Virus record (IMG/VR): IMGVR_UViG_3300012189_000063
Coordinates: 1 to 28,920 of that record
Origin: a virus
DNA: 28,920 nt
Reading direction: 5' to 3' (one strand)
Of this stretch, positions 6,397-6,692 are shown in pieces. The position numbers and the translations under genes are program-made. Numbering within the stretch: position 1 is the first letter of the stretch; the number at the start of each line of letters is the position of its first letter. Below the pieces are notes generated by a model that saw nothing but the letters and a program-made list of their open reading frames with translations, did no database searches and was not told the origin of the DNA.

Positions 6397-6486
6397 AAGC
6401 TTCGTGGGATACTGTGCCAATTAGTTAGGGATACTTCTGCCAAAGTGAATCCCTAATCAAATCCTCGCCAGTATCCCACGAAGCTT
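6397..6486 (+). ncRNA. Y RNA-like element 2
   Basis: The outer helix is 18 perfect base pairs (6397-6414 with 6469-6486). Inside it lie TGCCAA (6415-6420) and CCTCGC (6463-6468), then helix TTAGGGAT/ATCCCTAA (6425-6432 / 6449-6456) and a small apical hairpin containing TACTTCTGC (6432-6440) and GTGAA (6445-6449). There is no tRNA-like domain. The helices differ completely in sequence from those of element 1 while the internal-loop blocks are identical, which is the pattern of a conserved protein-binding internal loop. I infer it to be a minimal Ro-binding Y RNA. Confidence 0.75.
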
Positions 6487-6487
6487 A

Positions 6488-6556
6488 TGTTCTGTGCCAA
6501 TTGACCCCGGTTACTTCTGCGGTGAATGATACCGTGGTCAGCCCCTCGCCAGAACA
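6488..6556 (+). ncRNA. Y RNA-like element 3
   Basis: The outer helix is TGTTCTG/CAGAACA (6488-6494 / 6550-6556). Conserved TGCCAA (6495-6500) and CCTCGC (6544-6549) follow. The inner helix is TGACC-C-CGGT with ACCG-T-GGTCA (6502-6511 / 6531-6540, one mismatch), and the apical part has TACTTCTGC (6512-6520) and GGTGAAT (6521-6527). It is the shortest of the four (69 nt) and lacks a tRNA-like module. Only one base separates it from element 2 and one from element 4, so the array probably depends on processing from a precursor. Confidence 0.75.
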
Positions 6557-6557
6557 C

Positions 6558-6692
6558 CTTAGGCTTAGCGGAGGGTGTGTCAACTGATAGGGTTACTTCT
6601 TTGTTCGACTCAAAGCAGGCCCACTAATGGGCCTGTTGCCTAATGGTAAGGCTATCTCTGTCTATCCCTCGCCATCCTTCGCTAAGCTTAAG
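6558..6692 (+). ncRNA. Y RNA-like element 4 with alternative hairpin domain
   Basis: The outer helix is 20 continuous pairs, including three G-U (6558-6577 with 6673-6692). The internal-loop blocks are TGTCAA (6578-6583, one change from the others) and CCTCGC (6667-6672). Inner pairing is GATAG/CTATC (6586-6590 / 6652-6656) and TTAC/GTAA (6593-6596 / 6646-6649). In place of a tRNA mimic it carries stable hairpins: CTTTG/CAAAG (6599-6603 / 6611-6615) and CAGGCCCA/TGGGCCTG with a CTAA loop (6616-6635). The last base lies 36 nt before the Ro60 ATG. Confidence 0.72.

Follow-up and report, generated by a model that had tools for sequence, protein, structure and literature searches.

An array of four tandem Y-like RNAs (positions 6258-6692, plus strand; spacers of 4, 1 and 1 nt) precedes a predicted Ro60 gene in the virus record IMGVR_UViG_3300012189_000063 (positions 1 to 28,920; this whole stretch of 28,920 nt, or 28.9 kb, is hereafter the window), and we consider it probable that the array represents four Ro60-linked Y RNAs of two classes (Table 1). 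All four elements have the same proximal anatomy, consisting of an outer stem, a bulged U, two base pairs, an internal loop (5′ strand CAA, 3′ strand CCUC), an inner stem and, at the distal end of the inner stem, the motif UACUUC. The outer stems are unrelated in sequence among the four elements, yet complementary, and the 2-bp step is GC/GC in elements 1-3 and GU/GC in element 4. The array accounts for all four plus-strand occurrences of the ordered pattern TG[CT]CAA..GGNTACTTC..CCTCGC in the 28.9-kb window, and the minus strand has none. An initial annotation of this DNA had proposed that the Ro-binding half is kept among the elements while the distal half is replaced; every motif that it named in elements 1-4 was found where it had been placed, and the retention of the Ro-binding half was borne out in all four.

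Folding predictions were in line with separate RNAs. Folded jointly as one 479-nt strand, the region resolved into four independent elements (minimum free energy (MFE) -185.9 kcal/mol, z = -6.4, with 0 of 100 shuffles as good). When folded alone, elements 2 and 4 were far more stable than their shuffles (z = -10.2 and -5.4, respectively), element 3 was modestly so (z = -2.0) and element 1 was not significantly so (z = -1.1). The best match of the Rfam YrlA model (RF02553) to the window scored 30.8 bits, in element 1 only, relative to a gathering score of 69; at gathering thresholds, Rfam called no YrlA in the window or in the phage and bacterial Ro60 loci tested. Weak group II intron and miRNA matches from the Rfam search of the window were attributed to chance.

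A gap of 36 nt separates the array from the start codon of the Ro60 gene on the same strand, and a promoter candidate identified by consensus scan lies upstream of a small ORF, the array and the Ro60 gene. An NCBIfam search returned no match for the small ORF and none for the Ro60 protein. The product of the larger gene matched the Pfam TROVE domain (54 bits; cut-off 23) and phrog_850 (E = 1.5e-40), and its AlphaFold model (pLDDT 88, pTM 0.84) resembled PDB 9kop (Z = 27.2), Ro60 of the Thermus phage phiLo (9l5y; Z = 24.0), vertebrate Ro60 (Z = 19-23) and Deinococcus Rsr (Z = 19.8), with the residues of the DxSxS metal site (D296, S298 and S300) invariant. By sequence and predicted structure, this product is a Ro60/TROVE protein with a VWA part in its fold. 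Elsewhere in the window, an ordinary tRNA-Gln(TTG) gene (9258-9332) lies ~1.2 kb downstream of Ro60, and at 17546-20522 one ORF combining a uracil-DNA-glycosylase-like domain with a 3′-5′ exonuclease adjoins a separate ORF with a polymerase-A domain, the two apparently making up a split phage DNA polymerase.

Table 1. Features of the Y RNA array and its surroundings, in window coordinates (R1 and R2 are covariance models of the short and tRNA-like classes; their E-values are rough).
Feature	Position	Strand	Parts	Basis
Sigma-70-like promoter candidate	6005-6033	+	TTGACA-17-TATACT	Consensus scan, 11/12 positions
Small ORF, GTG start, 61 aa	6065-6250	+	Between promoter candidate and array	Translation
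Y RNA element 1, tRNA-like class	6258-6392	+	Outer stem 6258-6265/6385-6392; bulged U 6266; GC 6267-6268; UUACUUC 6281-6287 (UACUUC 6282-6287); CCUCGC 6379-6384	Finder; fold; model R2, 54.1 bits
Predicted permuted tRNA core of element 1	6306-6351	+	T-arm GTGGG-TGCAAGT-CCCAT; 5-bp acceptor CCGGC(GCAA)GCTGG; TA; D-arm GCTC-AGGTA-GAGC	Relaxed parser only
Y RNA element 2, short class	6397-6486	+	18-bp outer stem; bulged U 6415; GC 6416-6417; UACUUC 6432-6437; CCUCGC 6463-6468	Finder; fold, z -10.2; model R1, 17.0 bits, E 0.017 (weak)
Y RNA element 3, short class	6488-6556	+	Outer stem from 6488; bulged U 6495; GC 6496-6497; UACUUC 6512-6517; CCUCGC 6544-6549	Finder; fold; model R1, 25.6 bits, E 9.7e-5
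Y RNA element 4, tRNA-like class	6558-6692	+	20-bp outer stem; bulged U 6578; GU 6579-6580; UACUUC 6594-6599; CCUCGC 6667-6672	Finder; fold, z -5.4; model R2, 40.7 bits, E 2.2e-7
Predicted permuted tRNA core of element 4	6599-6652	+	T-arm CTTTG-TTCGACT-CAAAG (stem 6599-6603/6611-6615); acceptor CAGGCCCA(CTAA)TGGGCCTG (stem 6616-6623/6628-6635); TT; D-arm GCCT-AATGGTA-AGGC (6638-6652)	Strict parser; 2/5000 shuffles pass
Predicted Ro60 (TROVE + VWA) gene, 449 aa	6729-8078	+		Pfam; phrog; AlphaFold model

Relatives of the shared half were sought in ~170 Ro60 loci of phages and bacteria, drawn from IMG/VR, GTDB genomes and named phages. An exact-motif search with the window's own CAA/CCUC found no relatives, the family being visible only with a structural finder, which recovered 37 elements beside 15 Ro60 genes, compared to 1.3 in shuffled sequence. 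Anchored elements lay predominantly on the Ro60 strand, both in 94 viral loci (139, versus 10 on the opposite strand) and in 80 bacterial loci (158 versus 7), and the generic anatomy beside other Ro60 genes comprised a bulged U, GG/CC, an internal loop of YGNA and NGUU, an inner stem of 7-9 bp and (U)UACUUC. When neither the bulged base nor the pairs were prescribed, the bulge was U in 286 of 343 elements, and the 2-bp step varied in a compensatory manner across loci (GG/CC in 237, AG/CT in 32 and GC/GC in 16). The finder relied in part on motifs that it reports, and two controls were used: RNAalifold, run on 43 relatives excluding the window, recovered the bulge, 2-bp and internal-loop structure, and, among elements selected without regard to UACUUC, 205 of 275 on the Ro60 strand had this motif or a close variant after the inner stem, compared to 0 of 37 on the reverse strand. 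Because the motif was so frequent without having been selected for, we assign UACUUC, from its sequence context, to the Ro half in both distal classes, where it may contact Ro60. The initial annotation had seen in it a second conserved element at the domain border; the conservation holds in all four elements of the window, whereas a separate element does not, as the motif goes with the Ro half. The CAA/CCUC loop is a local variant retained in all four window elements, which fits co-evolution with one Ro60 and speaks against decay.

The distal halves fell into two groups across loci, with a bimodal length distribution (peaks at ~16-31 nt and ~80-95 nt). Most long distal halves could be read as a circularly permuted tRNA core, in which a T-arm is followed by an acceptor stem closed by a short loop, a spacer of 1-3 nt and a D-arm; in loci other than the window, a strict parser found this core in 88 of 142 long domains, compared to 0.2 in shuffles. 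Element 4 was initially read as two strong hairpins constituting a new, swapped effector. A third hairpin following these two had been overlooked, and it changes the nature of the distal domain: element 4 passes the strict parser, and its first two hairpins are therefore interpreted as T-arm and acceptor stem, with the third as D-arm. The element 4 sequence keeps U55, where TruB would act, and GG in the D-loop, the part on which DusA would act, and it is the most compact of 95 cores, its T-stem beginning 5 nt past the start of the border motif (mode ~24).

Element 1 carries a more divergent version of the same core, with G at T-loop position 55, a D-loop shortened to 5 nt and a TGCAA T-loop found in only 1 of the 95 cores, its own. 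Its tRNA mimicry may be partial, given the loss of U55, the short D-loop and the 5-bp acceptor. No anticodon arm was recognisable in element 1 or element 4. Both elements matched R2, from whose training the window had been left out (Table 1), and the ordinary tRNA-Gln scored 26 bits with this model, largely because of its T-arm. Sequence and covariance model together thus place elements 1 and 4 in one class, with a predicted circularly permuted tRNA-like domain of the YrlA type, and the proposed swap in element 4 was not sustained. At E-values up to 1e-5 (covariance-model E-values, here and in Table 1, are rough because the calibration was short), R2 matched the Ro60 strand exclusively, 174 times across 92 viral loci and 101 times across 44 bacterial ones; some of these loci had served to train the model. 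Most of the ~170 Ro60 loci searched hold such elements, and many hold arrays.

Elements 2 and 3 both end in a short distal hairpin (UACUUCUGC..GUGAA), in which neither the strict nor the relaxed parser found a permuted tRNA core, the distal part being too short. R1, built without the window, recognised element 3 clearly and element 2 weakly, an unrelated chance site reaching 15.4 bits. Element 3 clearly, and element 2 tentatively, can be assigned to a short-hairpin class that is widespread beside Ro60 genes, and the two are not swapped effectors of the kind that had been supposed. The idea of one constant Ro-binding end with variable distal ends is supported, with only two distal classes present in the window. 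A pair of adjoining short elements in another locus (L004:4540-4680) shares its inner stem and distal domain, with differing outer stems, and is apparently a recent duplication.

The closest known counterpart is YrlA (Salmonella YrlA, PDB 6CU1; Rfam RF02553), whose gene likewise adjoins that of Ro60/Rsr and whose basal stem is the site of the Ro60 ring. YrlA tethers the Rsr ring to PNPase and is a substrate of DusA and TruB (PMC8394870), and its distal domain superposes on tRNA through circular permutation (PMC11472068), with T-arm, acceptor and D-arm arranged as in window elements 1 and 4. Element 1 aligns to the Rfam model end to end. Nevertheless, the window differs from YrlA in having four tandem RNAs, scores below the Rfam gathering score and other Ro-half sequences, as well as in the lack of a tRNA-like domain in elements 2 and 3 and of U55 in element 1. 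Vertebrate Y RNAs (for example, hY1) bind Ro60 through a lower helix with a single bulged base and are described as sharing no homology with the bacterial ones (PMC4726728); a single-bulge lower helix is likewise present in the window elements, although the vertebrate bulge is C and the window bulge is U, with 2 bp before the internal loop. In Listeria phage CKA15, highly transcribed regions upstream of a Ro60-like gene were proposed, from transcriptomics, as possible Y RNAs (PMC12282133). The loop variant, the compact element 4 and the altered T-loop of element 1 are distinctive of the array studied here. Likely Y RNAs near Ro60 were reportedly noted in more than 250 bacterial and phage species by Chen et al. 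in 2014 (RNA 20:1715), with at least one tRNA-like Y RNA per species, and the window array has the same arrangement. As Y RNAs beside Ro60 were already known, the array is a further example of that kind; possibly new are the two-class composition of arrays, the UACUUC motif, the exchange of distal domains and the intact anticodon arms, the latter two seen in relatives.

Comparison of distal domains across homologous arrays, as suggested by the initial annotation, revealed replacement on an unchanged Ro half. The flanks of element 4 are identical in the Xanthomonas phages 10KY502B and Olaya, but they enclose a short hairpin in one phage and a domain with a T-arm in the other (compared directly, as the finder's element pairing missed that element), and element 5 appears as a tRNA-Thr mimic versus a tRNA-Asn mimic on Ro halves that are 95-100% identical. 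From these two elements we conclude, at the level of sequence, that distal domains are replaced on a constant Ro half between related phages. Arrays can also be considerably longer than that of the window, with eight tandem Y RNA elements within 1.2 kb upstream of Ro60 in Caulobacter phage CcrColossus (L013:2217-3410). Of 102 tRNA-like distal domains, 30 had a full anticodon arm whose loop was of the canonical 7 nt, relative to 0.7 expected from shuffles, in phages and bacteria alike (L009, L010, L013, L030, L091, L119 and others), with GTT, TGT and GCT the commonest anticodons. These numbers come from a stem-loop test, which was used in place of ARAGORN on de-permuted domains, a procedure without a shuffled control that gave a noisy anticodon list.

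Several other observations were made in these loci. Public annotations place tRNAs inside Y RNA elements (tRNA-Thr at L009:4831-4898, tRNA-Ser at L011:3266-3340 and L177:3266-3340, and tRNA-Gln at L013:2628-2695), which look like parts of permuted mimics and not tRNA genes. Bacteroides phage crAss001 carries Y-like elements downstream of its TROVE gene (L016:4946-5663), within the 0.9-kb gap and with AG/CT replacing GG/CC. In Brevundimonas jumbo phages, Rfam permuted tmRNA matches lie ~2-3 kb downstream of Ro60 (L011:6841-7186 and L012:7293-7548).

We propose that the four elements serve as Y RNAs for the phage's own Ro60, in a mechanism whose functional steps, taken together, we hold only tentatively, at somewhat less than even confidence. 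A single transcript would run through the array into the Ro60 gene, with the elements then excised, and the Ro60 ring would be bound via the shared half (the bulged-U helix, the CAA/CCUC loop, the inner stem and UACUUC). Elements 1 and 4 would then display their predicted permuted tRNA-like domain and, by analogy with YrlA, could tether a tRNA-handling partner, such as tRNA-modifying enzymes or, in a Ro60-Y RNA-PNPase particle, PNPase; alternatively, also by analogy with YrlA, they could act as tRNA decoys. Elements 2 and 3, because they have no tRNA-like domain, would most likely do no more than sit on the Ro60 surface and gate it, so that a share of the Ro60 stays free of any tRNA-like effector; this is the least certain step. 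In this way, the array would set the mix of Ro60 particles in infection.

Other explanations of the array differ in what they ask of the distal domains and of its position. In a stronger version of the adaptor idea, each distal end recruits its own protein, which would make the array a kit of separate effectors, as might be expected from distal domains that vary within arrays and that related phages exchange while the Ro halves stay constant, from arrays of up to eight elements and from the intact anticodon arms with differing anticodons in 30 of 102 tRNA-like domains; however, the window holds two classes only, with element 4 of the same tRNA-like type as element 1, and we consider this version unlikely. 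A role in cis, with the array as a leader of the Ro60 mRNA that binds Ro60 and controls translation or stability, would accord with the distance of 36 nt to the start codon, the shared strand and the promoter candidate upstream. Yet the crAss001 elements are downstream of Ro60, as are some of those in three further loci (L002, L038 and L087), and tRNA-like domains are unnecessary for control in cis, and we give this explanation a low probability.

The two remaining explanations were rejected. Element 1 alone might be functional and elements 2-4 its decayed copies, for which the restriction of Rfam YrlA similarity to element 1 could be cited, but the best folds are those of elements 2 and 4, the bulged U, CAA, UACUUC, CCUC and the 2-bp step are retained in all four elements together with unrelated yet complementary stems, the tRNA core is more canonical in element 4 and more degenerate in element 1, and both distal classes recur across dozens of loci. 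On this evidence from folding, conserved anatomy, the element 4 core and recurrence, several elements look real, as the initial annotation had supposed, and decay is very improbable. That the tRNA-like elements are permuted tRNA genes maturing into working tRNAs is less probable still: some relatives' distal domains do read as tRNAs once de-permuted, and annotators have labelled parts of some of them as tRNAs, but the loops joining the acceptor strands are as short as 2-4 nt, leaving no space for CCA or a leader, and an anticodon arm could not be recognised in either of the two tRNA-like window elements. Our preferred reading of the array is that of Y RNAs linked to Ro60, four in number and falling into two classes.

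A further, speculative extension, which we think rather unlikely, is that such arrays are modular tRNA baits, each element presenting a different permuted tRNA, which in relatives often has an entire anticodon arm, on a constant Ro60 handle, with phages exchanging distal domains in step with changes in their hosts and in the hosts' tRNA-cutting defences; under the same reading, the window would hold a pared-down set, made up of two mimics that lack an anticodon and two minimal handles. YrlA has already been suggested as a competitive inhibitor against an anticodon nuclease (PMC7790460), and the novelty, if this extension were true, would lie in a multi-anticodon, exchangeable array.

Ro60 and Y RNAs span phages to humans, and the roles of distal domains are known for few of them. 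Such RNAs escape the curated RNA family library and phage annotations or are given the wrong name there. Phage arrays offer a natural series, in which one Ro60 and one constant handle occur with several distal domains side by side, and, together with phage pairs that differ mainly in one distal domain, this series makes distal recruitment directly testable.
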